Shown piece by piece: positions 8,436 to 64,000 of a stretch of DNA of 64,000 bases. The notes under the pieces are model-generated. The model made no database searches and was not told the DNA's origin. It saw only the letters and a program-made list of their open reading frames with translations. The stretch is from the NCBI RefSeq assembly GCF_001657485.1, contig NZ_LXFU01000030.1, forward strand, positions 186,001 through 250,000, read 5' to 3'. Numbering within the stretch: the stretch's first letter is position 1; each line of letters starts with the position of its first letter. The position numbers were made by a program, and so were the translations under genes. The stretch comes from Rhizobium sp. WYCCWR10014. Its GTDB lineage: Bacteria; Pseudomonadota; Alphaproteobacteria; Rhizobiales; Rhizobiaceae.

Positions 8436-8448
8436 CAAACGCGATCAG

Positions 8449-8472
8449 CGGAGGGGCTTCGGCGCCCCTCCG
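8449..8472 (+). terminator. intercistronic hairpin after the binding-protein gene
   Basis: A perfect 9-bp GC-rich stem (CGGAGGGGC / GCCCCTCCG) with a 6-nt loop and a short T-tract (TTTG) follows 13 bp after the stop of the binding-protein gene, before the first permease. It probably works as a partial terminator or a 3'-end stabiliser that keeps binding protein in excess. A hairpin in the same place occurs at 38553 in another importer operon. Confidence 0.6.
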
Positions 8473-8592
8473 TTTGCATTCCGCATCTCGCGCCCAAAGG
8501 CGCGGTTCGAGAGGGCGCGGCGCCCGGAATTCACTTCGCGCATCGTGATGCCTTTCCCGGCATCCGGCGCCTACTCTCGGAGGAGGAGAGGA

Positions 8593-9498: not shown

Positions 9499-9499
9499 G

Positions 9500-45726: not shown

Positions 45727-46737
45727 CTACTCGCCTGCTTTGACTTTGAAATATCGCGTTCGAACGCTGGCAAAGACGCGCTCCGCCGCATTGCTGGCCA
45801 GCAGTGAAACGATGAGCAGAAGGCCGATGACCGTCCCCTGCGCGTCGCCGCCGATCTGCAGCAGACCAAGGACGTTGCGGATGGTGGCGACCAGAAGCAA
45901 TGCCCACAGCACGCCGGTCAGCCGGCCACGCCCGCCGAAGACGCTGATCCCGCCCAGAAGCGCGATGGTGATGACGTCGAGTTCGATGCCGACCGCATTG
46001 TTGGCGCGGGCATTCGCCAGCCGGGCCGCGTAGACCATGCCGGCTGCCGCGCAAATCACACCAGATGTGACGAACAGGCCGAACACGGTGCGAGCCAGGC
46101 GAATGCCGGAATAACGCGCGGCGTCAGGGCTCCCTCCGATCGCATAGATGCGCCGGCCGAGCGGCATCTTTTGAAGCGATATGGCGAAAATCGGGGCAAG
46201 CAGCAGGAAGGGAAGAATAGTCTGCGGCACCGGCGATGTGCCGACAGTATCGATGCCGAAATCGAGGAAGCTGTCGGGAAAATCGTTGATGGAGTCCGAG
46301 CCGAGCAGAATATAGGCAACGCCGCGAAACAGGGCCATCGTTCCGAGCGTCACGACAAGCGAGGGAAGACCGAGCTTGGTCACCAGCACGCCGTTGAAGC
46401 CACCGCAAATTCCGCCGGCGACAAGTGTTACCGGAATGGCCAGAAGGAGTGGCGCGCCCTGCTGGATGAGCAAACCGAAGATCACGCTGGTGAGCGCCAA
46501 TATGCTGCCGACGGACAGGTCGATTTCGCGCGCGATGATCAGCAGCACCATCGGCAACACGATGAGCGCCCTCTCCGAAATGCCGGCAACGGCCTGCGAA
46601 ATATTGAAGACGGAAGCGAAGTTCGGCACGCCCAGGAGAGCGTAGGCGATAACGGCGATCGTCAGCGCCGCCAGGAAATTATCCCAGTTGGCAAAGCGGG
46701 TGACGAAGTCGGAATTGCGCTCGGAATTTGTGTCCAT
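45727..46737 (-). CDS. ABC importer permease (CUT2, RbsC-like)
   Basis: This 336-residue integral membrane protein matches RbsC-type permeases: IIAREIDLSVGSILALTSVIFG, GFNGVLVTKLGLPSLVVTLGTMALFRG and ALLGGISVFGGRGRLTGVLW. Its ATG shares a base with the TGA of the upstream fusion gene (TGATG), so translation is coupled. It should pair with the permease domain of the fusion protein at 46737 to make a heterodimeric pore. Confidence 0.92.
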   Translation of the reverse strand: MDTNSERNSDFVTRFANWDNFLAALTIAVIAYALLGVPNFASVFNISQAVAGISERALIVLPMVLLIIAREIDLSVGSILALTSVIFGLLIQQGAPLLLAIPVTLVAGGICGGFNGVLVTKLGLPSLVVTLGTMALFRGVAYILLGSDSINDFPDSFLDFGIDTVGTSPVPQTILPFLLLAPIFAISLQKMPLGRRIYAIGGSPDAARYSGIRLARTVFGLFVTSGVICAAAGMVYAARLANARANNAVGIELDVITIALLGGISVFGGRGRLTGVLWALLLVATIRNVLGLLQIGGDAQGTVIGLLLIVSLLASNAAERVFASVRTRYFKVKAGE

Positions 46738-49322
46738 CAATGTGCTCCCTTGCGCTTGCCGGCGGCGCGGCGGGCGACGAGTGCGTCGATGCCGATGGCG
46801 GCGAGAATGACGAGGCCATAGACCCCCTGCAGCCAAAGTGGATCGACACGCACGAGTGTCAGCCCGTTGTTGATGATGAGCAGCATCAAGGCGCCGGCGG
46901 CGACGCCGAGCACCGTGCCGGAGCCGCCACGCACGGCAATTCCGCCGACGACGACAGCCGCAACCACCGTCAACTCGAAACCGTAGGCAACGCGTGCATC
47001 GACTGTGGCATAGCGCGAAGCCCAGAGCGCACCGTCGAACCCGGCCAGAAGCCCGGCTGCCGAAAACGCCATGAGGATGCGCGCCCGCGAGGGAATGCCG
47101 ATGAGGCTCGCTCCGCCGGGATTGGAACCGATGGCGAACAGTTCTCGACCGATCGAGGTATTTCGCAGGATGTAGGCGACGACGAGCAGCGTGGCGATGG
47201 CAATCAGGAGGACAGCCGGAACCCCGAGAATATTTGCCGCTGTCATATCCAGCCAGGCTTGCGGCACCTGGTCGGCACTCACTTGCGTTCCGCCGGCCCA
47301 GAGGCTGTTGATGCCCCGGAAGATGGACATGGTGCCGAGCGTGACGACGATGGCCGGTACGCGGCCGTAGGTCACGATGAGCCCATTCAGGAAGCCTGCG
47401 GCGAGCCCGATCGCACAAGCCAGGACGACCCCACCCATCACGCCGATCTCGGGATGCAGATGGATCGTCGAGGCCGCTCCATAGGCTGCAAGGCCAATGA
47501 TCGCAGCCACGGAAAGATCAATGCTTCGGGTGATGACAACAAGCATTTGGGCGACTGCGACGATCATCAGAAGGCCGGCATCCATTGCCAGGGCGGATAG
47601 ATTTGCGCCGCTGAGCATACGTATGTTCAATATTGAAATCGGAATGACGACAGCTGCAATGGCCGCAAACAGGCCCAATTCCCGGCGGGCGAGAACCCGC
47701 CGCCATGTGCCCTGCGCCGCTCTTTCCGGGAGCTCCAATTTTTCCTCTTGATGCGGGACCGGCTTGGCGACAATCTCGCCGTCCACCTTCTTGACGATCG
47801 CGTCTGTCGCAGCGCCGATCACCTTTTCTTGCGTGGCCTCGTCGTGGAGGAATTCGGCCGTAACCAAGCCTTCTCTCAGCACGATCATCCGGTCGGCCAT
47901 GCCTAGCAGTTCTGGCAGTTCGGATGAGATCAGGATGATCGCCATGCCTTTGCCGGCGAGATCAGCCATCATCGCATGCACATCGGCCTTGGTCTGAACG
48001 TCGATGCCTTGCGTCGGCTCGTCGAGGATAAGGATGCGAGGATTGGTCGCCAGCCATTTTGCCAGAACGACCTTTTGCTGGTTGCCGCCGGACAACGCGC
48101 CGACCGGCTGATCGAAGGATTTGAAACGCAGCCGAAGGCGATCGAGAAACGGCTTTGCAAGGTCAAGCTCCCTCTCGCGCGACATAAACCCGCCTCGGGT
48201 CGCCTTGTCGAGCACGGTCAACGACGCATTGTTCAGAATGGAGAAATCCATCACCAGGCTCTGCCCGATCCGGTCTTCGGAAACATAGGCGACGCCATTG
48301 TCCATGGCATCTTTCGGAGAGGCGAAGCGCAGTGCCTTGCCATCGATCCTGATTGTTCCCGCAGTCGGCTGATCGATCCCGAACAACACCCGGGCGATCT
48401 CGGTACGGCCACTGCCGACCAATCCGCCGAACCCCAGGATCTCGCCCGCTCTCAACTGAAACGACACATCCTTGAACGAGCCATCGCAGGACAACCCCTT
48501 AACATCGAGAACTACCTCGCCCGGGGAGGCGCTGTTGCGAGGATAGAGCCCGTCCAGCGCGCGCCCGACCATCATCTGAACGGCACGTTCCCGAGACAGA
48601 TCAGCCGCGCCTTCCGTTCCGACATGTCGCCCGTCGCGCAGGACGGCGATACGATCGGCGACGCGATAGATCTCGTCCATGCGATGGCCGACGAACATCA
48701 TCGCCACCCCTTGGGACCGGAGATTGTCCACGACTGTGAACAACCGCTCCACCTCTCGTTGGGACAGGGCCGCGGTCGGTTCGTCCATGATCAGAACGCG
48801 CGCGTCGAGCGAAAGCGCACGGGCAATTTCGACCAATTGCTGCTCTGATGTCCGAAGCCGCCCCAAGGGCGCCGTGACATCCACCTCGAGGCCGACGAGC
48901 GTAAGGAGGCGCGCCGCTTCGGCGCGCATATACAGGTGGTCAAGTTTCCAACGCAGCCCGGTCTGCCCGATGAACAGATTTTCAGCAATGCTGAGATCGG
49001 GAAAGAGACCCGGATGCTGATGCATAACCGCGACGCCGGCATGCTGGGCTTCCAGCGGGGACGCGAATGTGACGGCCTTCCCCAGAATGGAGACCTGGCC
49101 GCCATCTGGGCGATGCACGCCGGCGAGCAGCTTGACGCAGGTACTTTTGCCCGCCCCATTCTCCCCAAGCAGGGCCAGCACTTCGCCTGCGCGCAGTTGG
49201 ATAGACACATCCGCAACGGCGACGGTACCGCCAAAAACCTTCGTGACGCCTTCGAGCGACGCAACGACCTGGCCGGCCTCCATCGTTGGCGCCGCGGTTC
49301 GACGGCCTGAAATTTCAAGCAT
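46737..49322 (-). CDS. fused ABC importer protein: RbsA-like double ATPase plus RbsC-like permease
   Basis: This 861-residue protein joins two parts usually encoded separately. Residues ~20-505 are a CUT2 double ATPase: first Walker A GENGAGKST, Walker B LIMDEPTAALS; second half with the degenerate GLVGSGRTE, signature LSGGNQQKVVLAKWL and Walker B ILDEPTQGID. After a charged linker (~510-550) residues ~555-855 form a permease: ITRSIDLSVAAIIGLAAYGA, GFLNGLIVTYGRVPAIVVTLGTMSIFRG and VVGGIAVRGGSGTVLGV. The reading frame is continuous with no stop at the junction. It is first in the operon. ATG 49322 lacks a strong ribosome-binding site. Confidence 0.92.
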   Translation of the reverse strand: MLEISGRRTAAPTMEAGQVVASLEGVTKVFGGTVAVADVSIQLRAGEVLALLGENGAGKSTCVKLLAGVHRPDGGQVSILGKAVTFASPLEAQHAGVAVMHQHPGLFPDLSIAENLFIGQTGLRWKLDHLYMRAEAARLLTLVGLEVDVTAPLGRLRTSEQQLVEIARALSLDARVLIMDEPTAALSQREVERLFTVVDNLRSQGVAMMFVGHRMDEIYRVADRIAVLRDGRHVGTEGAADLSRERAVQMMVGRALDGLYPRNSASPGEVVLDVKGLSCDGSFKDVSFQLRAGEILGFGGLVGSGRTEIARVLFGIDQPTAGTIRIDGKALRFASPKDAMDNGVAYVSEDRIGQSLVMDFSILNNASLTVLDKATRGGFMSRERELDLAKPFLDRLRLRFKSFDQPVGALSGGNQQKVVLAKWLATNPRILILDEPTQGIDVQTKADVHAMMADLAGKGMAIILISSELPELLGMADRMIVLREGLVTAEFLHDEATQEKVIGAATDAIVKKVDGEIVAKPVPHQEEKLELPERAAQGTWRRVLARRELGLFAAIAAVVIPISILNIRMLSGANLSALAMDAGLLMIVAVAQMLVVITRSIDLSVAAIIGLAAYGAASTIHLHPEIGVMGGVVLACAIGLAAGFLNGLIVTYGRVPAIVVTLGTMSIFRGINSLWAGGTQVSADQVPQAWLDMTAANILGVPAVLLIAIATLLVVAYILRNTSIGRELFAIGSNPGGASLIGIPSRARILMAFSAAGLLAGFDGALWASRYATVDARVAYGFELTVVAAVVVGGIAVRGGSGTVLGVAAGALMLLIINNGLTLVRVDPLWLQGVYGLVILAAIGIDALVARRAAGKRKGAH

Positions 49323-49436
49323 CCCGAGCGTCCGACATAACCGGAATCGCTAACCCTGCACAGCACGTCATCTGTTCGATGCCTCCTCATGACCGAGAGC
49401 GTATCTCTCGCCCCAACTCCCATCGGGCATTTATTA

Positions 49437-49460
49437 AAGCAATTTACTATAATAATGCTT
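49437..49460. promoter_or_regulatory. inverted repeat in divergent promoter of CUT2 operon and ROK gene
   Basis: Half-sites AAGCAAT (49437-49443) and AATGCTT (49454-49460) are inverted with one mismatch, separated by the AT-rich TTACTATAAT. The site lies in the 295-bp gap 49323-49617 between the minus-strand importer operon and the plus-strand ROK regulator. ROK/NagC-type repressors prefer such AT-rich inverted repeats. The remaining gap shows nothing else clear. Confidence 0.4.
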
Positions 49461-49617
49461 GAATGTCGTCAAGCCTCGTCTTAATGATTATCTGGGGAGA
49501 CGGTTTTTGCTTCCGGCGCAATGAGTTGCGTTCATTCAGCGGTCGCGCTAGGTGTGGCGCACCGGCATGCGCTTAAAGCAAAGTGCTTTTGACTATGGTT
49601 TTCAACGGTGGAATCGG

Positions 49618-50850
49618 ATGGCAGGAAAAGGCAGCAATTCCGTCCAGCTCCGTCACTACAACGAGCGCGTTGTCCTGGATGCCGTTCGGCGTTTCGGCCA
49701 AGCGTCGAAGGCAGAGATCGCGCGGTTCGCGCATCTTACGCCACCAGCTGTCGCTGCGATCGTCGAGGCTCTCGTCGCCGGCGGTTACCTGGTCGAAAAC
49801 GGCAAACGCTTCGGCGGCAAGGGCCAGCCATCTGCCATGTACGGACTTGCCAGCAGCGGAGCCTATTCGATCGGCTTTCATATCGGCCGCAGGGCCATGG
49901 ATGCCATCCTGATCGATTTTGCCGGGCAAACCTGCGCATTCGAGACCCATGACTACGACCATCCGGATCCTGAGAGCATAAGGCGTCTCGGTGGCGGGGC
50001 GATCGGGCGGTTCAGGACCCAGCTCGGGAGCGACGAAAGTTCGCGCCTGATCGGCATCGGGATATCAGCCCCTTATTTCATCGGCGGGTGGGACGAGGAG
50101 CTGGGCTTTCCCGGTGATGTCCAGCTCGCCTGGCGGTCCTTTGACCTGAAAGCCCATTTCTCAGACACGCACAATCTTCCCGTCATGATCGAGAACGACG
50201 CGTCAGCAGCCGCCGTCGCCGAACTGGTCTACGGATTGGGCAAGAAGTTTTCCGATTTCCTGCATATTTCGCTCAGCACATTCGTCGGCGGAGGGCTTGT
50301 CGTCGACGGAACGTTGCAGACCGGTCCGAACGGCAATACCGCCGCGTTCGGGCCTTTCCCGGTCACACATTCAACTTTAAGCTCCGTTCCAAAGCCGACT
50401 GGAAAATTCGAAGTCCTGCTGCATCGGGCGTCGATCTACACGCTCGTCCATCATCTTAGAACAAACGGGATAGACATAAAACGTGTCCGGGATCTCGACC
50501 CGATGCCGGCGGCCGCGCGGACCCTGGTCTCGGAATGGCAGGATGATTGCGCGGATGCCCTTGCCCAGGCAATCATCGGAAGCATTTCTGTCATCGATGT
50601 CGAAGCCATTGTCATCGATGGGCTTCTCCCCGCCCCACTGCTGATGGAGACCGTTGCCCGCGTCCGGCAATGCTTTTCGGAGATGGTGCCCCCCGGCCTG
50701 ATCGCACCCACGATCGCCGCCGGCGCTCTGGGAGCCCGGGGTTCTGCGCTCGGAGCAAGCATTCTTCCGCTTTACCTGATGTTCGGGCCAGATACCGGCG
50801 TCCTTATGAAAAAGGGCAACGATAAGAAGCCGCTCTTGATTGGCTCGTAG
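49618..50850 (+). CDS. ROK-family transcriptional regulator (NagC/XylR-like), atypical sugar-kinase domain
   Basis: This 410-residue regulator has an N-terminal winged helix (LRHYNERVVLDAVRRFGQAS, then AEIARFAHLTPPAVAAIVEALVAGGYL) and a ROK domain (SIGFHIGRRAMDAILIDFAGQ, LIGIGISAPYFIGG, LSTFVGGGLVVDG). The CxCGxxGCxE zinc motif expected near residue 260 is missing (the segment runs PVTHSTLSSVPKPTG), as is GEIGH. It is therefore a sensor without kinase activity. ATG 49618 is preferred because GGTGGA precedes it; ATG 49567 is possible. It is divergent from and likely controls the CUT2 operon. Confidence 0.85.
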   Translation: MAGKGSNSVQLRHYNERVVLDAVRRFGQASKAEIARFAHLTPPAVAAIVEALVAGGYLVENGKRFGGKGQPSAMYGLASSGAYSIGFHIGRRAMDAILIDFAGQTCAFETHDYDHPDPESIRRLGGGAIGRFRTQLGSDESSRLIGIGISAPYFIGGWDEELGFPGDVQLAWRSFDLKAHFSDTHNLPVMIENDASAAAVAELVYGLGKKFSDFLHISLSTFVGGGLVVDGTLQTGPNGNTAAFGPFPVTHSTLSSVPKPTGKFEVLLHRASIYTLVHHLRTNGIDIKRVRDLDPMPAAARTLVSEWQDDCADALAQAIIGSISVIDVEAIVIDGLLPAPLLMETVARVRQCFSEMVPPGLIAPTIAAGALGARGSALGASILPLYLMFGPDTGVLMKKGNDKKPLLIGS

Positions 50851-54111: not shown

Positions 54112-54399
54112 CTAGCTCGTTGGCAAAGTGTCTGGCCATTCCTGCGCCCCATCGAGGACGCGAAGAATACGGACCGTTGTTTTGGAAATTGCATACGCCG
54201 CGACGTACGGGGTGCCGTAAATTGCCAGTTCGCGGGTGCCATCAATTCTGCCAACACGACCGCTCGCGGGAAATCTATCAACCGACGGACGGCAGCCATG
54301 ATCCGTTCGTCGACTAGGCGGCTGCGGATTTTCTGCTTCTATGTATGTGAAGGTGGCGTCTCGATCCAATAACGCGAACGCAGACCAGGTAAGCTCCAC
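54112..54399 (-). pseudogene. RelE/ParE-type toxin with compensated double frameshift
   Basis: The 95-residue frame from GTG 54399 begins like a RelE/ParE toxin (MELTWSAFALLDRDATFTYI) and ends like one (GTPYVAAYAISKTTVRILRV, then LDGAQEWPD). The middle (about 54272-54320) is out of register: in this frame it reads QPPSRRTDHGCRPSVDR, while the next frame gives VDERIMAAVRRLIDFP, the helix expected in the family. One shift in and one shift out would restore the C terminus. The helix pair is therefore scrambled and the toxin is probably inactive. It overlaps the antitoxin gene, as intact modules do. Confidence 0.65.
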
Positions 54400-54704
54400 G
54401 ACTTGCGAGCACCCACGTTAAAGCGGACCGTCGCTCGACGCTCAGCAAAATGTGCCTCGACTTCATCATCCGCGACGTCGGGTCGAGTATCGTTCAGCGC
54501 TTCGAGTACCTTCGTAAGAAACCAAGCGTCTTGGACCTCGCTGCCCGAAAGAAGCTCCAGCGGCAGCGCCCCCTCGTTGGCCGTCCGGGAGAGTAAGATC
54601 CGAACCGCATCCGATACCTTTAGCCCCATATTTCCAAGCACTGCGGAAGCACGATCCCGAACCTCGGCATCGATACGAGTTTGTACCAGCGCGTTTGCAG
54701 CCAT
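54339..54704 (-). CDS. RelB/DinJ-type antitoxin with read-through C-terminal extension
   Basis: This 121-residue protein starts MAANALVQTRIDAEVRDRAS and contains GLKVSDAVRILLSRTANEGALPL, the ribbon-helix-helix of the RelB/DinJ family, followed by the toxin-binding segment (EALNDTRPDVADDEVEAHFA). After residue ~101 (KSWS) it runs on for about 20 residues (LPGLRSRYWIETPPSHT) that are the toxin gene read in another frame. A TGA at 54390-54392 would exist if minus-strand base 54391 were G rather than T. ATG 54704 follows GGAGATAGCA. Confidence 0.75.
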   Translation of the reverse strand: MAANALVQTRIDAEVRDRASAVLGNMGLKVSDAVRILLSRTANEGALPLELLSGSEVQDAWFLTKVLEALNDTRPDVADDEVEAHFAERRATVRFNVGARKSWSLPGLRSRYWIETPPSHT

Positions 54705-54875
54705 TGCTATCTCCACATTTCAGTCAAATGATAAGGGTGCTCTCTATGGCGATCTTTCTGAGGTGCCAACCGCATACACGCAAGCGCGGACCATCACGTT
54801 AGAAGGTAGTCCTCGCGAAGTCGGTCGAGACCGAGTGCTTCAGCAGTCAGCAAGAAAAGCACAGCCAGATTGGAG

Positions 54876-56237
54876 CTATCGTATGGCTTCTTCTGTGGCC
54901 AGCGCGACCGAAAGCAAATGCTCGTCGCCATTCGGCAAGCCGGAAAGCAGCAGACCGACAGGCATGCCGGCATCGCCGGCGCCACAGGGGATCGAGACAC
55001 CGCAGCCGTCGAGGAAGTTGCCGATCAGCGTGTTGCGCAACGTCCTGGCATTGGTTTTCACGAAAAGCTCGTCGTCGGTCAAAAGCGGTGCGGTCAGGGG
55101 CGCGACATGCGGTAAGGTTGGCGACACGACCAGTTCGCCCGGTCCGATGCTGGACGCAAATTCCGCCATCAGATGCTCACGGGTGGCCAACGTCTCGATA
55201 TAGCCTGTTAAAGTGATCGTCTCGCCCAGCCGCGTGCGAGCAACCACGCGAGGGTCCATTCCCTCGGCCTCCGGTCCCGCCAAACGCTCCCGGTGCAGCA
55301 CGAAGGCTTCCGCCGTCACCAGCGGGCCGTATTTATCCATCAGCTCAAAGATTGCGGCATAGGCCGGAAACGCCTGCCGCCGAATTTTTGCCCCGGACTT
55401 TTCCAGGAGCTTCAGGGCCGCTTCGAAGGCCGACACCACGGCTGCTTCCGCATCATCGAAAACGATGGTTTCGGGAACGACGAGCGAAAGACCCTCGACC
55501 GAGCTACGGCGAATATCGGGTGCGACGAGGCCGCGCATCGCCGCATCGATCCACACCGCATCCTGCACGGTATGGCAGAGCGGCCCGAGCGAATCGAGGC
55601 TTTTCGACAACGGGAAAACACCCCGCATGGAATAGCGGCCGCGGGTTGCCTTGTAGCCGACGACGCCGTTAAAGGCTGCCGGGATGCGGACCGATCCGCC
55701 CGTGTCCGTCCCGATCGAAACCGGCACCAGTCCTGATGCCACCACAACGCCGGAGCCGGACGAAGAACCGCCGGGCAACCGTGCACCATCGGTCGAGGCC
55801 GGGTTCTGCGGCGTTCCGTAGTGAGGATTTATGCCGAGCCCTGAAAAGGCAAACTCGCTCATATTGACCCGGCCGATGCTGACCATGCCGGCCCCGGCAA
55901 GCGCCGCAACGACATCGGCGTCCCGAGTTGCGGGTACCGATGTTTTGAGCACGGTGGAGCCGGCCGTTGTTGCAAGCCCCTCGATATCGAAAAGATCCTT
56001 CCAGGCAACCGGAATGCCGTCGAGGAGGCCAAGGGAACGACCATCCCTGACGCGCTTGGACGAAGCGGCGGCTTCAGCCCTCGCCCGCTGTTCCAGCAGG
56101 GTGACGAAGATCGACTGGTCCTTGCAGCTGTCAATGGCGATAAATGTCTCCTCAGCGAGCGCCACCGGATCGAGCGCGCCGTTCTGTATCAGCACGGAAA
56201 GCTGGGCGACTGTTTTTCCACCGTGAGACGGCATCAT
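54876..56237 (-). CDS. amidase-signature-family hydrolase (possible half-amidase)
   Basis: This 453-residue amidase has the Ser-cisSer-Lys triad: Lys80 (VAWKDLFDI), cis-Ser158 (LPGGSSSGSG) and Ser182 (TDTGGSVRIPAAF). Family members hydrolyse amides to acids and ammonia, and no signal peptide is present. ATG 56237 follows GAGGAAACGC. It is the last gene of the operon of importer, imidase-like enzyme and CobW. If the 58923 product opens a cyclic imide, this enzyme could hydrolyse the resulting half-amide; that is inference from context. Confidence 0.9.
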   Translation of the reverse strand: MMPSHGGKTVAQLSVLIQNGALDPVALAEETFIAIDSCKDQSIFVTLLEQRARAEAAASSKRVRDGRSLGLLDGIPVAWKDLFDIEGLATTAGSTVLKTSVPATRDADVVAALAGAGMVSIGRVNMSEFAFSGLGINPHYGTPQNPASTDGARLPGGSSSGSGVVVASGLVPVSIGTDTGGSVRIPAAFNGVVGYKATRGRYSMRGVFPLSKSLDSLGPLCHTVQDAVWIDAAMRGLVAPDIRRSSVEGLSLVVPETIVFDDAEAAVVSAFEAALKLLEKSGAKIRRQAFPAYAAIFELMDKYGPLVTAEAFVLHRERLAGPEAEGMDPRVVARTRLGETITLTGYIETLATREHLMAEFASSIGPGELVVSPTLPHVAPLTAPLLTDDELFVKTNARTLRNTLIGNFLDGCGVSIPCGAGDAGMPVGLLLSGLPNGDEHLLSVALATEEAIR

Positions 56238-56249
56238 GCGTTTCCTCTT

Positions 56250-57473
56250 CTACCGTCCGACAAGCTGCATCCACCGGCGGACGAGATAATTGTGTTCATC
56301 CATCGTCGTGTTCCAAACGGCGATGCAGTTTGCCCTTTGCCAGTACGACCCGCCGGCCCTTATGCTGCCCTTGTGAATTCGCACCGACCCATCCGGGCCG
56401 GGAAGATCGGTGGCGGCGGGGAGCCCCTCGTACCAGTAATCCCACTCTGCCGGCATCATGAACTGCCGGGAACGTTGCGGCGTCGAGATGTAATAACCCT
56501 GACGCGCGACGACGGCACCGGGCCAGCCCGATATCCACCAGTTCAGATATTCGTAGGCGACATCGAGCATCCGGCCACTCAGATCCTTGGACAGGCACAG
56601 ACCGCCATGCCAGGCTCGGTAGCCCTCGACGGGGACCGCCTGCTCGACGGGAATGCCCTGCCCATTCAGAATGTTAATCCCCGTCGACCACATGCTCTGT
56701 ACACAGGTTTCACCGTCGACCATCAACCGAGCGGCATCCTCTGCCGTTCGCCAGAACTCCCGGAAGAAACCGTCCTTCTTGCGTGCTTCCAGTAGATCGA
56801 TCAGCCGGTCGATTTCGGCCACCGTCATGTTGCCGATATTGTTGAACGACATCAGTCCTGCCGCCTGCGCGGCCAGCGCAGCATCGAAAATACCGATGGC
56901 CGGCTCATCGACCAAGGAGACGCGGCCGGCCCATTTCTCGTTCAGCAGCGACGCCCAGGAGTTCATCTCGACGGCATGCTTCACCACGTCGGTACGGTAG
57001 GCGAAACTGTCGAAATTGTGCGTCGTCGGCAACATCGAAATGCGCGGCGATGGCGTATCGCCAAGCGCGAGGTTCGGCTGTACGAACAGCTTCTTGGCCG
57101 GTACATCGCCCTGTCCCAGCCGCGCGTTAGGCCCGATATGCCCGGTCTTGGTGAGATCGTTGATCTCGGACCACAGCTTGATCCGCTCGGTGCTGATCGG
57201 CTGCACGGCGCGCCAGTACCAGACGATATCCAGATTGTGGAAACACTGGTCGTAAATGTCGTAGCTTCCAGGCTCCTGCGCCGCCTTGTGCTGCGTCGTC
57301 AGGAAGTCGTTGTTATCGAAGGTGACGTCGATGCCGAGATCCTGCTCGGCCTGCAGACGTAGTTCCTCCAGCAGGGAAATCGCCGTGCCGAGTACGCGCA
57401 GTTTCGGCCTGCCTTCGAGATGGAGTGCTGGCGTGGCAGGTGGTTGCGGGTTTGGGTGATGCTTGTTCATCAA
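56250..57473 (-). CDS. signal-peptide-less solute-binding-protein homologue (spermidine/putrescine-binding fold)
   Basis: The 407-residue protein has the two-lobed binding fold of the PotD/PotF group, and its C-terminal third parallels the periplasmic protein at 61031 (ARQGYYISTP...WYEGLP versus SEQGYYSPST...WYEGKP). It starts MMNKHHPNPQPPATPALHLE with no hydrophobic leader, and its ATG overlaps the CobW stop (ATGA), so no hidden upstream signal peptide is possible in this gene. It is therefore probably cytoplasmic. It may sense, sequester or deliver the imported compound; the role is unknown. Confidence 0.8.
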   Translation of the reverse strand: MMNKHHPNPQPPATPALHLEGRPKLRVLGTAISLLEELRLQAEQDLGIDVTFDNNDFLTTQHKAAQEPGSYDIYDQCFHNLDIVWYWRAVQPISTERIKLWSEINDLTKTGHIGPNARLGQGDVPAKKLFVQPNLALGDTPSPRISMLPTTHNFDSFAYRTDVVKHAVEMNSWASLLNEKWAGRVSLVDEPAIGIFDAALAAQAAGLMSFNNIGNMTVAEIDRLIDLLEARKKDGFFREFWRTAEDAARLMVDGETCVQSMWSTGINILNGQGIPVEQAVPVEGYRAWHGGLCLSKDLSGRMLDVAYEYLNWWISGWPGAVVARQGYYISTPQRSRQFMMPAEWDYWYEGLPAATDLPGPDGSVRIHKGSIRAGGSYWQRANCIAVWNTTMDEHNYLVRRWMQLVGR

Positions 57474-58540
57474 GAGGTCTGGACGTCCTGTCGTGCTGAC
57501 GGTGCTCCCCCCGCCAGGGAGGACACGGGTCCTGCGAGTGTGAAGGCCTCGAAGGATCGTTTCAGCAGACTGGCATCGAGTCCGTCAACAATAAAGACGA
57601 TATGCGAGCGGCGATCGTCCGAGGGCCAGGCAGCCATATGCGTGGGCGGGTGAACAAGATGCTGCACGCCATGGATGGCCACGGGCCGGGCCTCGCCCTC
57701 AAGATTGAGGATGCCCTTCACCCGCAGCACCCGTTCGCCGTGCCGGTGGAGTAACATGGTCAGCCAGACGCCGAACGCAGTCCAGTCTATGGCGCCCTCG
57801 ACGCTCATGACGAAGGAGGTGACGGCCGCCTGATGGGTGCCGCCGTCTGCCGTCTCCAGCATGGCCGGCGTTTCGCAATAAAAGCCGCTCGGCGATTGAG
57901 CGATGCTGCCACGTGTGGCAACAGCCTCGTCAAACAGCCCGGCGACATCCAGCTCTCCATCGGCCGTCGATAGCAGAGCGGCATCGGGGTTGAGCCGCCG
58001 CAGCCGCTCCCGAAGAAGGTCCAGACCCTCTTCATCGGCAATGTCCGTCTTCGTCAACATCAGCCGGTCGGCGATCGCCGCTTGCCGGTTGGATTCGATA
58101 TAGGTATCGAGCTGGCGCATGCCGTTGACCGCATCGACCGTCGCGATGACGTTGCCCGGCCGGAAGTGATGCCGCAGCACCGGGTCGGCCTTCAGCGTCG
58201 ACAGTACGGGAAAGGGATCGGCAAGGCCGGTGCTTTCGATCACCACGCGCTTGAAATTCGGAATAAGCCCACGCTCGCGCCTGGAATGCAGGTCGCGCAG
58301 CGCATCGGCCAGTTCACCGCGAACCGTGCAGCAGAGGCATCCCGATTGCAGCAGCACCATCGTCTCGTCGATCCGCTCAAGCAGATAATGATCGAGGCCG
58401 ACTTCGCCGAACTCGTTGACGAGCACGGCCGTCTCTGCCAGCGCCGGATCGGTCAGCAGCCGTTTCAGCAGCGTCGTCTTGCCCGAGCCGAGAAAGCCGG
58501 TAAGCAGGTTCACAGGGGTAAAGGCCGGGCTATTCGCCAT
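57470..58540 (-). CDS. CobW/G3E-family GTPase (putative metallochaperone)
   Basis: This 356-residue protein has Walker A LTGFLGSGKTTLL (13-25), the NEFGEVGLD switch region, the metal-binding CLCC motif at 68-71 (SGCLCCTVRGEL), guanine-specificity motif LTKTDI and a C-terminal CobW domain. G3E GTPases insert or deliver metals (Zn, Co, Ni) to target enzymes. In this operon the likely client is the metal-dependent deacetylase-fold enzyme at 58923. It overlaps the upstream small gene by 11 bp and the downstream binding-protein homologue by 4 bp. Confidence 0.92.
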   Translation of the reverse strand: MANSPAFTPVNLLTGFLGSGKTTLLKRLLTDPALAETAVLVNEFGEVGLDHYLLERIDETMVLLQSGCLCCTVRGELADALRDLHSRRERGLIPNFKRVVIESTGLADPFPVLSTLKADPVLRHHFRPGNVIATVDAVNGMRQLDTYIESNRQAAIADRLMLTKTDIADEEGLDLLRERLRRLNPDAALLSTADGELDVAGLFDEAVATRGSIAQSPSGFYCETPAMLETADGGTHQAAVTSFVMSVEGAIDWTAFGVWLTMLLHRHGERVLRVKGILNLEGEARPVAIHGVQHLVHPPTHMAAWPSDDRRSHIVFIVDGLDASLLKRSFEAFTLAGPVSSLAGGAPSARQDVQTS

Positions 58541-58865
58541 CGCGCGCCGCCTCCATCCGCCCGATGATATCGATATTCAGCGGATCGCAGATCCGGCCTG
58601 AAAGCCGCTCGGCAGCCGGCCAGAGATGGCCGAGATCTTCGATGATCTCGCTTTTGCCGGTGCGCGTCGACAACACAAAGGCCGCCCCCTGCCAGTCCGA
58701 CAGCGTCATGCCGAAGCCCGCCAACACCCGGTTTGCCACCCGCACCCGATTGGCACGCTCGCGACGCCGATCAATCCGCTCGACATTGCGCGTAAAAACA
58801 CCGGGCCGCGCCACCGCATCGGCCCAGTGTTCATTTCCTCCGAGAACCCCGCACAGCGAGCACAT
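58530..58865 (-). CDS. small protein with N-terminal CxxC, unknown function, coupled to CobW
   Basis: This 111-residue protein begins MCSLCGVLGGNEHW, giving a CxxC pair, and has an amphipathic, Arg-rich middle (RNVERIDRRRERANRVRVAN). The remainder (DWQGAAFVLSTRTGKSEIIE, then DLGHLWPAAERL) looks like a small alpha/beta domain. I do not recognise a named family. It overlaps the CobW gene by 11 bp and follows the imidase-like gene after a hairpin. A metal-binding or metal-handoff partner of CobW is a reasonable hypothesis from the CxxC and position. Confidence 0.75.
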   Translation of the reverse strand: MCSLCGVLGGNEHWADAVARPGVFTRNVERIDRRRERANRVRVANRVLAGFGMTLSDWQGAAFVLSTRTGKSEIIEDLGHLWPAAERLSGRICDPLNIDIIGRMEAARDGE

Positions 58866-58889
58866 AGTATTTCCTTGAAATATGTGAAA

Positions 58890-58910
58890 GGAGCGGACAC
58901 CGCCCGCTCC
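58890..58910 (-). terminator. hairpin between imidase-like gene and CxxC gene
   Basis: A perfect 7-bp stem (GGAGCGG / CCGCTCC) with a 7-nt loop is followed on the minus strand by TTTC. It lies 12 bp after the stop of the 58923 gene and may reduce expression of the four downstream genes relative to the importer and hydrolase. Confidence 0.5.
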
Positions 58911-58922
58911 TCGTCTTGCCGT

Positions 58923-59804
58923 TTACTTTTTGCGCGGAAAGCGCTTGGCGAAATCGTCGGCGATCTCGTTCATGGTCACGAACTTGACACCCGGATGCTT
59001 GCTCATATGCGCAAACAACCGCTCCAGCATCATCAGCACCTGCGGACGGCCGGCGACATCCGGATGGATGGTGATCGGGAAGACTGCATAATCCATTTCG
59101 CGATAGACCCAGTCGAACTGGTCGCGCCACATCTGCTCGATATCGTGCGGATTGACGAAACCGTGGCTGTTCGGCGCCTTCTTGATGAACATCATCGGCG
59201 GCAAGTCGTCGAGATACCAGGAAGCCGGAATTTCGATCAGGTCGGTTTCCTGGCCGCGCTTCAGGGGCACCATCCAGTCGGACGGCTTCTTCGAATAGTC
59301 GATCTTGGTCCAGCTGTCGCCGACACGCACGTAATAGGGCGTGAAATCGTTGTGCATCAGCGAGTGGTCGTACTTTATACCGCGCTCCAGCAGGAGCTCA
59401 TTGGTGACGTTGGAAAACTCCCACCAAGGCGCCACGTAGCCAGTCGGCCGCTTGCCGGAAAGCTTGGTGACGAGATCGATGCACTTATCGAGAATTTCGG
59501 TTTCCTGCTCGCGGGTCATCGCGATCGGGTTCTCATGGGTATAGCCGTGAATACCGATCTCGTGGCCGGCATCGGCCACTGCCTGCATCTGCTCCGGAAA
59601 GGTCTCGATCGAATGACCGGGTATGAACCAGGTCGTCTTGATGCCGAAGCGGTCGAACAGCTTCAGCAGGCGTGGACTGCCCACCTCGCCGGCAAAAAGC
59701 CCGCGCGAAATATCGTCCGGCGAATCCTCGCCACCATACGATCCGAGCCAGCCTGCAACGGCATCAACGTCGACGCCGAAGCTGCAAAAGATTTCCTTCG
59801 CCAT
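58923..59804 (-). CDS. polysaccharide-deacetylase-fold hydrolase of the cyclic-imidase/HP0310 type
   Basis: This 293-residue enzyme has a NodB-type metal site: Asp14 ([10 protein letters not shown]), His86 and His90 (HGYTHEN). Long stretches ([21 protein letters not shown] region, [48 protein letters not shown]) match what I recall of Helicobacter HP0310 and the 293-residue cyclic imidase of Pseudomonas putida. PuuE allantoinases are more distant relatives. It likely hydrolyses a cyclic imide or ureide rather than a polysaccharide. It has no signal peptide. The start follows AAGGAGACATAACCC. It is downstream of the ATPase gene by 41 bp. Confidence 0.85.
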
Positions 59805-59845
59805 GGGTTATGTCTCCTTGTGGTTTCTTATCAGAAGGTGTCGTT

Positions 59846-60955
59846 TCAGTGGACCGGAATGACCGTGGCTTCCGCCGGATTCCACGAAAGAAGAACGCCG
59901 GAGCCGACCGGAAAGGCCTCGGGCTGATATTTGTCGATATGCGCCTCGAGCGCGACGGAGTGCCCGTCCGGCAGGCTGGCCGTCAGGTGCGAGACGTGGC
60001 CGACCACGTCGAACCGCTCGATCCGCGCATCAACGACATTGCCGCCGATCTTGGCGACAAGACGCTCGCGCAACTGGGTGTCGGCCGCATGCACCTCGAT
60101 CGCTTCAGCGGGAATGACCAGATTGACCTTGGTCTTACCGGGCACAGCACCGTTGGCGCGCCCCGACAGCATGCCGACGGGCGTGGACACGGCGATATTA
60201 TCTCCATGTGCGCCCTGTACTTCACCCTGGAGGATCGTGTTGCGGCCGATGAACTGCGCCACAAAGGGCGTGTTGGGTCTGGTGTAAAGCTGGTGCGGCG
60301 GGCTGATCTGCTCGACACGGCCCTGGTTCATCACGACGATGCGGTCGGACAGCGCCAGTGCTTCCGACTGCGCGTGGGTGACGAAGATGAAGGTGATGCC
60401 GAGTGTTTTCTGCAGCAGCTTCAGCTCGTTCTGGATCGCCTTGCGCAGATTGGCATCGAGCGCGCCCAGCGGTTCATCCAAAAGAAGAATATCCGGTTCG
60501 ACAACGAGGCCGCGTGCCAGCGCGATGCGCTGGCGCTGGCCACCCGACAACTTGTCCGGCTTGCGATCGGCGATATCCTCCAGGCCGAGTGTCGCCAGGA
60601 TGCGATCGACCTTGGCATCACGCTCCGCCCTTGCCATGCCCTTGACCTCCAGACCGTAGCCGACATTGCGGCGCACGGTCATGTGCGGAAACAACGCATA
60701 ACTCTGGAAGATCATCGAGGTCGGCCGCCCCTGCGGCGACACGTCGTTCATCCGCACGCCCTTGATCATCATGTCGCCGGTGGAAATCCCCTCGAAGCCG
60801 GCAATCATCCGCAGCGTCGTCGTCTTGCCGCAGCCGGACGGTCCGAGAAACGCGATAAACTCGCCCTTGGTGACCGAAAGGTTGAAGTCGATGACGGCCG
60901 GTGTGCCGTTGTCATAGACCTTGCCAACATTTCTGAGTTCGAGGTCGTAGATCAT
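59846..60955 (-). CDS. ABC importer ATP-binding subunit (PotA-type)
   Basis: This 369-residue ATPase has Walker A GPSGCGKTTT, Q-loop IFQSYALFPHMTV, signature [15 protein letters not shown], Walker B ILLLDEPLGALD and H-loop FVTHAQSEALALS, followed by a TOBE-type regulatory domain. The H-loop region reads THAQSEA instead of the usual THDQEEA. It serves the PotD-type binding protein at 61031 and permeases encoded beyond the right edge. The start follows GGAGCAACACCC. Confidence 0.93.
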   Translation of the reverse strand: MIYDLELRNVGKVYDNGTPAVIDFNLSVTKGEFIAFLGPSGCGKTTTLRMIAGFEGISTGDMMIKGVRMNDVSPQGRPTSMIFQSYALFPHMTVRRNVGYGLEVKGMARAERDAKVDRILATLGLEDIADRKPDKLSGGQRQRIALARGLVVEPDILLLDEPLGALDANLRKAIQNELKLLQKTLGITFIFVTHAQSEALALSDRIVVMNQGRVEQISPPHQLYTRPNTPFVAQFIGRNTILQGEVQGAHGDNIAVSTPVGMLSGRANGAVPGKTKVNLVIPAEAIEVHAADTQLRERLVAKIGGNVVDARIERFDVVGHVSHLTASLPDGHSVALEAHIDKYQPEAFPVGSGVLLSWNPAEATVIPVH

Positions 60956-60995
60956 GGGTGTTGCTCCGGACGGTGGGGGATGCGTCTGATTGTGT

Positions 60996-61020
60996 ACCCT
61001 CCCCTTGAGAAGGGGAGGGT
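60996..61020. repeat. perfect 11-bp intergenic hairpin (ACCCTCCCCTT-GAG-AAGGGGAGGGT type)
   Basis: Between the binding-protein and ATPase genes lies a perfect inverted repeat with arms ACCCTCCCCTT and AAGGGGAGGGT and a 3-nt loop. Palindromes of this CCCTCCCC...GGGGAGGG kind are frequent between genes in alpha-proteobacteria, so it may be a dispersed repeat as well as an mRNA stem that protects the upstream binding-protein message. It starts 10 bp past the 61031 stop on the minus strand. Confidence 0.7.
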
Positions 61021-61030
61021 AGAAAGAAGC

Positions 61031-62263
61031 TTATGCGCTCAGGAACTCATCCCACTTCTGAATGAGGTGGTCGTATTCATCCGGCCACTGGTGCCAATAG
61101 GCGACATTGGCCGCGCGCTCCTCAAGCGATCCCCCGTCCCGAAGATCCCCTTCCTTGATGCCGCGCTCTTCCGCGCCGACCCACGGCTTGCCCTCATACC
61201 AGAAGGCATATTTCTCCGGCGCCATGACATCCTTGATGTTCGTCGACGGCGAATAGTAGCCCTGCTCCGAAACCGCGATGCCCGGCTCCCCGGAAAGCCA
61301 GTAGTCGGCGTAGGCGATAACGGCTTCCTTGTTGGTCGTACCGGCGATCATCGTTGGGCCGATCGCCCAGCCGCGATAACCTTCCTTCGGCACCGCGTAC
61401 TTGCAGGGCTTGCCCTGCGCCTTGACGGCCATGACCGCCGGCTGCCAGGCGTCGCAGACGACCATTTCACCCGATGCCATCAAGTTGACGAGCTCGCCGA
61501 AATCACCCCACAGCGCGCGGAACTGACCTTCCTTCTTCTTCGAAATCAGGAATGCGGCCGCCTCGTCGATTTCCGCCGCTGTCGCATTGCCGGGGTTCTT
61601 GACATCTGAAAGGCCGAGCGTGTTCATCGCCATGATGGCCTGGCCGAAAGCGATCAGCGGATCGGTGTTGAGGCCGGACTTGCCCTTCCACTTCGGATCG
61701 AAGATCGCCGCCCAGGTATTTGCTTCCTCGGCGCTGACGACGTCGGGATTGTAGCCGATCGAATCGTAGTTATAGACGGCAGGCACCATGTTGAGCGTGG
61801 TCTGCGCCTCGTCGGCCCAGATCTGGCCGGTGATCTGCGATTTCACGTCCCATTTGTCGCTCGGCTTGGTGAACACCTCGCGAATGTTCGCCCAGTTCTT
61901 CAACGATGCGGCCGGGATCACTTCGACATTGTTGGTCATGACGATCGACGGCAGACGCTCGGCAATGATTTCCCAGCAATCATAGTCCTTCGAACCGGAC
62001 AGGATCTTGGTTTGCGCATCCGGGAATGTCGCTGCCGTTCCAGAGGTGCCGCCGACGCCGGACGCCTTTTTGAATTCTTCAAGAATGCGTTCCTGAACCG
62101 TGACCGAAAGGCCGATCGTGCGCAGCTGCTGGCCAGCAAGGTCGGCCGCCTGCGCATAGGCTGCGCGCGACGACAGCAGATGCGTGCCGCCGCCGATGGC
62201 AAGCGCCATCACGCCTGCGGACCGCTTCAGAAGGGAGCGGCGATTGATTTCCATGTTGGACAT
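61031..62263 (-). CDS. ABC importer solute-binding protein (PotD/PotF type) with Tat-like leader
   Basis: This 410-residue protein has leader MSNMEINRRSLLKRSAGVMA with a twin-arginine motif (NRRSLLKR) and expected cleavage at AYAQA. The mature part has the polyamine-type binding fold (LRTIGLSVTVQERILEEFKK). ATG 62263 follows GGAGAAGAGAC. It lies in the same operon as a leaderless paralogue (56250). Export by Tat would imply folding, possibly with ligand or cofactor, before secretion. The ligand is unknown; an amide- or imide-type compound is inferred from the enzymes. Confidence 0.9.
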   Translation of the reverse strand: MSNMEINRRSLLKRSAGVMALAIGGGTHLLSSRAAYAQAADLAGQQLRTIGLSVTVQERILEEFKKASGVGGTSGTAATFPDAQTKILSGSKDYDCWEIIAERLPSIVMTNNVEVIPAASLKNWANIREVFTKPSDKWDVKSQITGQIWADEAQTTLNMVPAVYNYDSIGYNPDVVSAEEANTWAAIFDPKWKGKSGLNTDPLIAFGQAIMAMNTLGLSDVKNPGNATAAEIDEAAAFLISKKKEGQFRALWGDFGELVNLMASGEMVVCDAWQPAVMAVKAQGKPCKYAVPKEGYRGWAIGPTMIAGTTNKEAVIAYADYWLSGEPGIAVSEQGYYSPSTNIKDVMAPEKYAFWYEGKPWVGAEERGIKEGDLRDGGSLEERAANVAYWHQWPDEYDHLIQKWDEFLSA

Positions 62264-62373
62264 GTCTCTTCTCCAGTTGATTGTTGTTCCCCGGACCCCG
62301 TTTGATCGCGGCCCCTTCCTCAGTCTCCGCAGGCCGCTGGCGGCGATAACAGCCACCATCAAGCCTCAACGGT

Positions 62374-63141
62374 TCAGTAGCGCCCCACGAGGAGGCCTCC
62401 ATCCACGACCAGCACCTGGCCGGTCATGTATCTCGCGTCGTTCGACGCCAGAAATGCGATGACGTCCGCGATATCGTCAGGCGTACCGAGCCGCCCCATC
62501 GGGATGAATTCGGCTGCCTTTTCAGCCCCGGCCGGCCCCAGAGAATTCTCTTCGGACAGAAGCTGCGCCGTTCGGATGTATCCGGGCGCGATGCCGTTGA
62601 CCCGCACGCCGTCCCGCGCCAACTCCACGGCCAGACCGCGCACGAGGCCGATGACACCGGACTTGGCCGCCGAATAATGCACATGCTCGTCCCAGCCATA
62701 GGCGATGCCCATGATCGAGGAGAGCGCGACGATGCTGCCGGATTTGCGCGAACGCATGCCGGGAGCCACCGCCCGCGCCAGGCGGAAAATGCCCTTGAGA
62801 TCGATGTCGAAGGTCAGGTCCCACTTTTCGTCGGTGAGATCTGCCAGCGGCGTGCGGTGTGCGATCCCTGCATTGGCGACGACCACATCGATACCGCCGT
62901 GGCGGGCTTCTACGTCTGCCACCAGCGCCTCGGTGGCCTCGGTCGAGCGCACGTCGTAAAGCTGGAATTCGGCCGATCCGCCAGCCGACAGAATGGCCTG
63001 CGCTGTCTCCATTCCCTGCTTTTCCAGAATGTCGGTGACGATGACGTGGTCGCCACGCGCAGCAAGCGCTTTGGCCGTCGCCTGCCCGATACCGATCCCG
63101 GCGCCGGTGACGATGGCAATAGGTTTCGATGGTACCGTCAT
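62374..63141 (-). CDS. short-chain dehydrogenase/reductase (SDR), second of pair
   Basis: This 255-residue enzyme shows the classical SDR set: coenzyme motif VTGAGIGIGQA, NAG in VVVANAGIAH, Ser in IVALSSIMG and catalytic YxxxK in VHYSAAKSG, with the end IRTAQL and GQVLVVDGG. It is NAD(P)-dependent and cytoplasmic. It follows another SDR (63155) by 13 bp and precedes the binding-protein gene. ATG 63141 has GAGAGGGACAG upstream. The substrate is unknown, presumably an alcohol or ketone on the imported compound or its product. Confidence 0.92.
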   Translation of the reverse strand: MTVPSKPIAIVTGAGIGIGQATAKALAARGDHVIVTDILEKQGMETAQAILSAGGSAEFQLYDVRSTEATEALVADVEARHGGIDVVVANAGIAHRTPLADLTDEKWDLTFDIDLKGIFRLARAVAPGMRSRKSGSIVALSSIMGIAYGWDEHVHYSAAKSGVIGLVRGLAVELARDGVRVNGIAPGYIRTAQLLSEENSLGPAGAEKAAEFIPMGRLGTPDDIADVIAFLASNDARYMTGQVLVVDGGLLVGRY

Positions 63142-63154
63142 GGTTCTGTCCCTC

Positions 63155-63901
63155 TCACAGCATCACGTCGCCGGAATTCGGCCCGAGCGTCTGGCCGACG
63201 AATAGGCTCGCTGCCGGCGATGCGAGGAAGGCGACCGTTTCGGCCACTTCCTCAGGCTCGCCGAAACGCCCAAGCGGCAGTTCGGCCTTCTTGGCGGCGC
63301 GCCAGTCGTCGGACAGCGCCATCACCAGCGGCGTGTTGATCGGCCCCGGCGCCACGGCGTTCACCCGCACGCCGCGCTTGGAAACCTCGCGGGCCAGCGC
63401 CTTGGTCAGGCCGATGATGGCCGCCTTGGCGCTGGAATAATGCACAAGCTCGACGCCGCCGATCTGGCCAAGTTGCGAGGCGACATTGACGACGACCCCC
63501 TCGCCGCGGTCCAGCATCGCCGGCAGCACCGCCTTGGTCATCAGGAAGGTGCCGCGCACATGCACGGCGAACATCCGGTCGAAATCCTTGACCTCGAGAT
63601 TTTCGAACAGCGCCTGATGGGCGATGCCGGCATTGTTGACGAGAAGATGCGTCTCGCCATGCGCCGTCACCGCAGCGGCGTGGATGGCAGCCACGTCGTC
63701 TTCGGATGACACGTCCCCGGCAATGGCGGCAGCGGTTCCGCCTGCCGCCTGAATTTCGCCGGCGACCGCATCGGCCCGGACCAGCGACAGATCGTTGACC
63801 ATCACCGCGTAGCCCTCGGCCGCCAGCTTGTGGGCGATGGCCCGGCCGATACCGGAGCCGGCACCCGTGACGATCGCGGAGCGCTTTTGCGGCACCATCA
63901 T
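63155..63901 (-). CDS. short-chain dehydrogenase/reductase (SDR), first of pair
   Basis: This 248-residue SDR has VTGAGSGIGRA, LLVNNAGIAH, VVNVASQLG with catalytic Ser, and VHYSSAKAAIIG with YxxxK. Its end differs from the usual VDGG (GQTLGPNSGDVML). The ATG overlaps the stop of the upstream permease gene (ATGA at 63898-63901) and is preceded by GGAGGAGGC. It shares only general SDR similarity with the following gene, so the pair may catalyse two different redox steps. Confidence 0.92.
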   Translation of the reverse strand: MMVPQKRSAIVTGAGSGIGRAIAHKLAAEGYAVMVNDLSLVRADAVAGEIQAAGGTAAAIAGDVSSEDDVAAIHAAAVTAHGETHLLVNNAGIAHQALFENLEVKDFDRMFAVHVRGTFLMTKAVLPAMLDRGEGVVVNVASQLGQIGGVELVHYSSAKAAIIGLTKALAREVSKRGVRVNAVAPGPINTPLVMALSDDWRAAKKAELPLGRFGEPEEVAETVAFLASPAASLFVGQTLGPNSGDVML

Positions 63902-64000
63902 GCCTCCTCCTGGATTGCCATCTGCTTGGCGCGGCGCACGGACAGCGTCATCAGCACGGCGTAGACGCCCAGCAGCGCAAAGGAGAACAGTGTGGTCAGC
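63898..64000 (-). CDS. ABC importer permease C-terminus (PotC-like), cut by window edge
   Basis: Only the last 33 residues are present, ending TTLFSFALLGVYAVLMTLSV followed by RRAKQMAIQEEA and TGA. The hydrophobic last membrane helix followed by a short positive tail is typical of ABC permeases. Given the PotA- and PotD-type genes downstream, it is probably the second permease of that system. Its stop overlaps the SDR start. Confidence 0.7.
   Translation of the reverse strand, partial: LTTLFSFALLGVYAVLMTLSVRRAKQMAIQEEA

Follow-up and report, generated by a model that had tools for sequence, protein, structure and literature searches.

Gene content and organization of the operon

We analyzed a 64,000-nucleotide stretch of the genome of Rhizobium sp. 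WYCCWR10014 (the window, part of contig C30 in a genome of 7.44 Mb), which carries a minus-strand operon that we read, with moderate confidence, as catabolic for a cyclic amide: it would combine uptake, oxidation by short-chain dehydrogenases/reductases (SDRs), ring opening by an imidase, hydrolysis by an amidase, metal loading by a small CxxC protein and a CobW-family GTPase, and a cytosolic protein of the solute-binding-protein fold (SBP2). Nine closely packed genes lie between positions 54876 and 63901 (Table 1), with intergenic gaps, from SDR2 to the amidase, of 13, 11, 75, 41, 57, -11, -4 and 12 nucleotides. A preliminary description of this DNA had placed two SDRs, a 293-residue enzyme, a CxxC protein, a CobW GTPase, a leaderless binding protein and an amidase in one operon, and we found the genes and their residues just as it had given them. 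It had also named a Pot-type importer; a Pot-like ABC importer is present, but the window itself holds only one ATPase, the receptor and the final 34 codons of a permease gene. In the contig sequence past position 64000 (L008, contig C30:238000-257000; window position equals L008 position plus 51999), the operon runs on to about 66851 and takes in the remainder of that permease, another permease and another ATPase.

Comparable gene sets were found again in many genomes, so the operon is not a chance grouping. Close relatives are rhizobial: the imidase is 100% identical in plasmid p2 of Pararhizobium qamdonense and in Rhizobium sp. Root483D2. The laboratory strain Rhizobium johnstonii 3841 also has an imidase gene, RL_RS33635. 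Promoter and terminator scans of the locus gave nothing beyond chance level.

Table 1. Genes of the operon, from the highest to the lowest coordinate, in window numbering
Feature	Position	Strand	Basis
Second ABC ATPase	about 65691-66851, outside window	-	L008
Second ABC permease	64746-65645, outside window	-	L008
ABC permease, 3' end (last 34 codons)	63898..64000 in window; whole gene 63898-64743	-	Homologues annotated ABC permease in L107
SDR2, NAD(P)-dependent dehydrogenase	63155..63901	-	PF13561/PF00106; TGAGSGIG and YSSAK motifs
SDR1, NAD(P)-dependent dehydrogenase	62374..63141	-	PF13561/PF00106; TGAGIGIG and YSAAK motifs
SBP1, Tat-exported importer receptor	61031..62362	-	PF13416; PotD-like, E 9e-8; RRSLLKR leader
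ATP1, ABC ATPase, Pot/Ugp-like group	59846..60955	-	PF00005, TOBE_2; under curated PotA cut-offs
Probable cyclic imidase of 293 residues with a polysaccharide-deacetylase fold	58923..59804	-	D14/H86/H90 metal ligands, D12, H247
MCxxCG protein, 111 aa	58530..58865	-	Outside any Pfam/NCBIfam model
COG0523/CobW-family GTPase	57470..58540	-	PF02492, PF07683; CLCC; YjiA relative; overlaps 111-aa gene
SBP2, signal-less SBP-fold protein	56250..57473	-	PF13416; start TTG 57473 or ATG 57470; overlaps CobW
Amidase-signature enzyme, proposed half-amidase	54876..56237	-	PF01425; NF004766 above cut-off

A probable cyclic imidase

The protein encoded at 58923 is a polysaccharide-deacetylase homologue, probably of the cyclic-imidase type. 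The preliminary description had likened it to the imidase of Pseudomonas putida, a 293-residue polysaccharide-deacetylase homologue. Against PDB sequences the window protein matched 3qbu, Helicobacter pylori HP0310, at 532 bits across 293 of 293 residues, 218 of them shared (74%, counted from the match line of the search). The PuuE allantoinase, the other comparison that had been proposed, reached 59 bits only; this difference, together with a TIGR03212 score of 85.2 bits against a cut-off of 424.6, led us to reject an identity as PuuE, which shares the fold superfamily and has no metal according to the available portion of PMC3084791.

In the HP0310 structure the metal is bound by Asp14, His86 and His90, a water molecule is bound by Asp12, Asp14 and His247, and the pocket is closed by Trp127, Trp196, Tyr23 and Leu201; the protein has no signal peptide (PMC3084791, available portion). 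The window protein keeps all of these metal, water and pocket residues. Across 113 aligned sequences, the window's included, His86, His90 and His247 occur in every one. Of these sequences 112 also have Asp12 and Asp14, and the one that does not comes from a locus truncated at its start.

The tie to imides comes from fungal HxnM, which opens 3-hydroxypiperidine-2,6-dione, is structurally closest to HP0310, and is 64.2% identical to the P. putida cyclic imide hydrolase AAY98498, so that the family tie between AAY98498 and the window protein runs through HxnM (PMC9304392, available portion). The imidase family first proposed for the window protein is thus supported by the HP0310 match, the retained residues and the HxnM link. 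HP0310 differs in its name: it is called a peptidoglycan deacetylase though 74% identical to a probable imidase, and the name deserves a test on imides.

An accessory pair tied to the imidase

The 111-residue protein begins with MCSLCG (C2, C5), matches no Pfam or NCBIfam model and has no credible match among PDB sequences; among the 120 matches listed of its 820 relatives, all those with names are hypothetical or uncharacterized. M1, C2, C5, W14, G70, W82, D94 and P95 are invariant in 53 aligned CxxC proteins. The predicted model gave no clear match to solved structures, and its first 30 residues have a pLDDT of about 53. Class II glutamine amidotransferases, which start with MCG, are conceivable kin; the protein has neither a Pfam match nor a clear structural one. 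Its proposed partner carries the COG0523 motifs Walker A, CxCC and [NT]KxD and the CobW and CobW_C domains, with GFLGSGKT at residue 15, CLCC at 68 and TKTD at 163.

To place these genes in context we draw on a survey of 108 loci, 86 of which combine an imidase at 60% identity or more with flanks of 4 kb or longer on both sides. Its first sample was the best 80 of at least 592 confirmed candidates, and the frequencies lean to Rhizobiales, mostly nearest relatives. Gene calling was crude for part of the loci (SBP2 and others were missed in L194), and the analysis leaves out L193 and L207, which were dropped, as well as L184 and L185. Among the 86 loci, 83 have the CxxC gene and 83 have CobW, the same three loci (L109, L114 and L117) being without both; where importer homologues are missing (24 loci), both genes are still found in 23.

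The association holds in other samples and from the other direction. Among 299 genomes of the phylum, five besides the window's have the imidase, and all five have CxxC and CobW nearby (two share a genus). All 12 CxxC loci among 61 relatives, the window's included, adjoin imidase and CobW. The 385 genomes of the class hold 26 CxxC loci in 23 genomes, again including the window's; an imidase-family match lies within a flank of at most 1.5 kb in 25 of them (one at 30% identity and three cut short at the locus edge), and CobW in 24. In the gammaproteobacterial genus of genome G294, which is probably Pseudomonas, the imidase occurs in 31 of 149 genomes, and all 31 operons contain a GntR gene, a major facilitator superfamily (MFS) carrier, both SDRs, CxxC, CobW and SBP2, the amidase being found in 29.

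The locus of genome G439 is informative because of what is missing from it. Its 19.5-kb stretch has the amidase, both ATPases, both permeases, SBP1, both SDRs, GntR, SBP2 and Pxp-like genes at 32-78% identity, along with HyuA/HyuB genes, and a repeated tblastn search of this stretch gave no match to imidase, CxxC or CobW. Nor was an imidase found in the G439 genome at E 1e-15 (the genome is 93% complete, and the search for CobW was confined to the stretch), and G439 is not among the CxxC matches listed for the class genomes. Because all three genes are missing jointly, they seem to come and go together.

This linkage suggests that the CxxC protein and the GTPase are dedicated to metallation of the imidase. 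Of the dedicated metal loading put forward in the preliminary description, a metallochaperone-like pair tied to the imidase therefore stands, and loading itself is drawn from the linkage. Several observations weigh against it. The imidase occurs without the pair in L109, L114 and L117 and, further afield, in L118-L120, which are haloarchaeal and Agrobacterium loci; some hosts can thus do without the two genes. L190 pairs CxxC and CobW with a deacetylase homologue of 30% identity that keeps the five polar residues; G643 (L128, L195) pairs them with an amidase and has no adjacent imidase; and His13, which could complete a C2-C5-His13 metal site in the CxxC protein, is kept in only 48 of 53 sequences, making such a site possible but not general. 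In a tree, 51 linked CobW proteins separate from five paralogues of the window genome (100/95), but proof of a private clade would take more outgroups.

The pair might instead fold, repair or regulate the imidase, or be a co-regulated part of general metal supply, a proposal that we regard as the less probable one while taking it seriously. It would fit the uninformative fold model of the CxxC protein and the fact that imidases without the pair (L109, L114, L117-L119) retain the same metal ligands. It sits poorly with the pair being missing exactly where the imidase is missing, in G439, and accompanying the imidase at 23 of 24 importer-less loci. COG0523 proteins with a private client are also known: the gene of Nha3, a G3E GTPase of COG0523 subfamily 2, lies beside its one client metalloenzyme, an Fe-type nitrile hydratase (PMC2770081, available portion), whereas the client here would be a hydrolase of the polysaccharide-deacetylase fold and the partner an undescribed MCxxCG protein. 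The literature on COG0523/CobW, judged from listings and outside subscription journals, yielded no link to an imidase; PMC11406972, in its available portion, names another CobW gene, RL4362.

Importer, dehydrogenases and amidase

Both SDRs have intact motifs, and the amidase has Lys80, Ser158 and Ser182 at the places of the catalytic triad, which we assigned by a presumed Lys-Ser-Ser spacing. The true start of SBP1 is likely 62263, as judged from the annotated Pararhizobium gene. PotA models fell short of their cut-offs (330.8 bits against 482, and 322.6 against 355.6), as did PotD (30 against 582), and in some relatives the ABC importer is exchanged for an MFS carrier; for these two reasons polyamine uptake was rejected as the principal function. 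Compared with PotABCD, the importer has the same ABC layout and a PotD-like receptor fold, but it has two different ATPases and is exchangeable with MFS.

Within the 86 loci, an ABC permease is found in 54, an MFS homologue in 8 (that of L049 at merely 25% identity) and SDR homologues in 64. The amidase occurs in 48 and an asparaginase in 10, with at least one of them in 57; importer-bearing loci have one or the other in 50 of 62 cases. An asparaginase-type enzyme replaces the amidase, adjoining the imidase, in Rhizobium ACO-34A, Skermanella, Rhodococcus, Paracoccus and Halocatena, and in Thioclava it stands further down the operon in the amidase's place; the family was confirmed for L108 and L189. 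This interchange favors the half-amide hydrolysis step that had been suggested for the amidase. Telling against it, 29 of the 86 loci have neither enzyme in the fetched stretch. Two MFS-type operons, L241 and L253, are without an amidase, and an asparaginase homologue looked for in their stretches was not found.

The order of reactions has a fungal precedent, in which the SDR HxnW oxidizes a 6-hydroxy lactam to the imide that HxnM opens, followed by the amide hydrolase HxnN (PMC9304392, available portion). In Rhodococcus (L114) an NADH:flavin oxidoreductase and an FAD-dependent oxidoreductase lie beside the asparaginase, imidase, MFS carrier and two SDRs, a set that recalls the fungal one. Because the SDRs accompany importer-bearing operons (SDR1 and SDR2 homologues at 56 of 62 such loci) and fit a lactam-to-imide oxidation ahead of ring opening, the imported compound is probably a lactam-like precursor, and the window imidase most likely opens an imide made by an SDR from a hydroxylated lactam.

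In the preliminary description the imide itself was imported; the importer is there, but the imide as its cargo is doubtful. Import and direct opening of an imide, with the SDRs acting after ring opening or on the side, would agree with many of the 24 importer-less loci, where the imidase-CxxC-CobW core has neither importer nor SDR orthologues beside it. We nevertheless think it rather improbable, given the two SDRs in 56 of 62 importer-bearing loci and in 31 of 31 MFS-type operons and the characterized fungal order, which puts the SDR ahead of the imidase.

A deacetylase would be a further departure: the 58923 enzyme could remove N- or O-acetyl groups from small compounds such as polyamines or cell-wall pieces, supplied by the Pot-like importer, with metal from CobW. 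Counting for this and against an imidase, HP0310 has been reported as a deacetylase and acetylesterase active on acetylated xylan, chitin, chitosan and p-nitrophenyl acetate (PMC3688963, available portion) and, in work that PMC3084791 cites, as influencing how peptidoglycan is acetylated in vivo; Shaik et al. observed its homologues near polyamine-importer genes (PMC3084791); and the window protein matches Pfam Polysacc_deac_1. Yet the available portion of PMC3084791 has HP0310 inactive on the acetylated compounds tried, among them N-acetylputrescine, N-acetylspermidine and N-acetylglucosamine, and on allantoin. The pocket is closed, the importer is swapped for MFS carriers while PotA and PotD models stay under their cut-offs, an amidase or asparaginase partner would be of no obvious benefit to a deacetylase, and imide opening by HxnM has both genetic and metabolite evidence (PMC9304392). 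The survey of gene neighborhoods showed no consistent polyamine or polysaccharide association; besides the MFS swaps, the neighbors of related operons include HyuAB, Pxp, dihydropyrimidinase-like and asparaginase genes. HyuA homologues were counted at 11 of the 86 loci, and L186 has HyuA together with HyuB and an amidohydrolase. We consider a deacetylase unlikely.

A signal-less protein of the solute-binding-protein fold

SBP2 has no signal peptide, in contrast to SBP1 with its leader of the twin-arginine translocation (Tat) type. Leaderless SBP2 was found by script at 53 of 109 loci, and L122 and L194, where the longest SBP2 reading frames run into unrelated upstream sequence, were added by eye. 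In the MFS-type operons it is leaderless in 31 of 31, and a start codon sits 2-7 residues ahead of the fold, as in MITLRVLGTS; 20 of these have no in-frame start more than 10 residues upstream, and the in-frame starts of the other 11 lie at least 37 residues upstream, where they would overlap the preceding gene. Leaderless SBP2 with an MFS carrier also occurs on Pantoea and Klebsiella plasmids. SBP2-like proteins are present in 42 of the 385 class genomes; of 30 loci fetched, 28 have an RR-type leader by eye, and only those of the window and G439 are leaderless.

A tree of 43 proteins joins the 31 leaderless SBP2 into one group (98/96), nearest to six Tat-exported proteins (97/96) and with six SBP1 apart; since long branches meet there, the grouping is firmer than the sister relation. 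All 31 SBP2 share Y74, Q76, F78, H79, D82 and W85, none of which is the most frequent residue at its position in either of the other groups.

Because SBP2 persists without an ABC importer, it probably belongs to the pathway as a cytosolic protein and does not serve the importer as receptor; the part in import first ascribed to it is not supported. Since it is kept in G439, which is without the imidase trio, SBP2 belongs with the SDR and amidase side. That it is a second receptor leaving the cell by another route, or a copy in decay, is very unlikely: its fold family is shared with exported receptors and its closest tree group is Tat-exported, but it is full length, has six constant residues and is retained in 31 of 31 MFS-type operons, 20 of them offering no start for a leader, and the receptor role was rejected on the absence of an ABC importer there. 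In titles and abstract beginnings of the literature on cytosolic binding proteins we found no protein of its kind.

Neighboring genes

Beyond the second ATPase lies a divergent GntR-type regulator gene (L008 15245-16372), whose product matches GntR models twice (about residues 53-126 and 147-206), as a protein with two helix-turn-helix domains would. A 5-oxoprolinase-like set (Pxp and biotin carboxylase) follows: PxpA-like, biotin carrier, biotin carboxylase, PxpB-like and PxpC-like genes stand in a row upstream of the regulator (L206 1-2762; L008 16444-18999), and KipA/PxpC homologues occur at 37 of 80 imidase loci. Directly after the amidase, on the same strand, are genes for a RelB-type antitoxin and a ParE-type toxin (window 54112-54716). 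At window 46737-50850, an 861-residue protein reads as a sugar ABC ATPase-permease fusion (from reading only), with a divergent ROK-family regulator. Elsewhere, the CxxC and CobW genes of L190 and the divergent deacetylase homologue beside them (positions 7961-10349) stand in a stretch that reads like a ring-hydroxylating oxygenase cluster, and L068 and L070, from records titled Terriglobia and Mycobacterium, have proteobacteria-like loci, which would point to misnamed or mixed assemblies or to transfer.

Proposed pathway and its significance

From the genes, their order and conservation, the residues and the missing leader observed here, we infer every activity, metal and substrate in the following scheme. 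The substrate, most likely a hydroxylated lactam that is converted to an imide, would be taken up by the Tat-exported receptor and ABC importer (in some other bacteria by an MFS carrier). One or both SDRs would oxidize it to the imide, the mononuclear-metal imidase would open the ring to a half-amide, and the amidase (elsewhere an asparaginase) would free ammonia and leave a dicarboxylate. Loading of the Asp14/His86/His90 site, probably with zinc, may fall to the MCxxCG protein and the GTPase as a pair, and SBP2 may carry, sense or transform a pathway intermediate in the cytosol.

Cyclic-imide opening followed by half-amide hydrolysis is a known theme. The HxnW-HxnM-HxnN set for nicotinate breakdown in Aspergillus nidulans likewise dedicates an SDR, an HP0310-type imidase and an amide hydrolase to one route; it differs in being fungal and in having an amidase nearest FAAH, and CobW, CxxC, SBP2 and an ABC importer are not seen in the available portion of PMC9304392. 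The proposed imidase metallation would be comparable to that of nitrile hydratase with Nha3 or of urease with UreE-UreG. In the literature searched we found no description of a conserved accessory pair for an imidase or of a signal-less protein of the SBP fold such as SBP2. We propose, tentatively and at rather less than even confidence, that the operon combines a dedicated two-protein metallation of the imidase with an SBP2 family that lost export once and now serves as an intracellular enzyme or intermediate carrier.

If this is true, one part of COG0523, a large family whose members are mostly without known clients, would gain both a client and a small partner protein. It also bears on the disputed role of the HP0310-type "peptidoglycan deacetylases", for which the opening of small rings may be the actual reaction. 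SBP2, finally, would be a receptor fold that seemingly moved to the cytosol once, with an intracellular role that is testable in rhizobia and pseudomonads.

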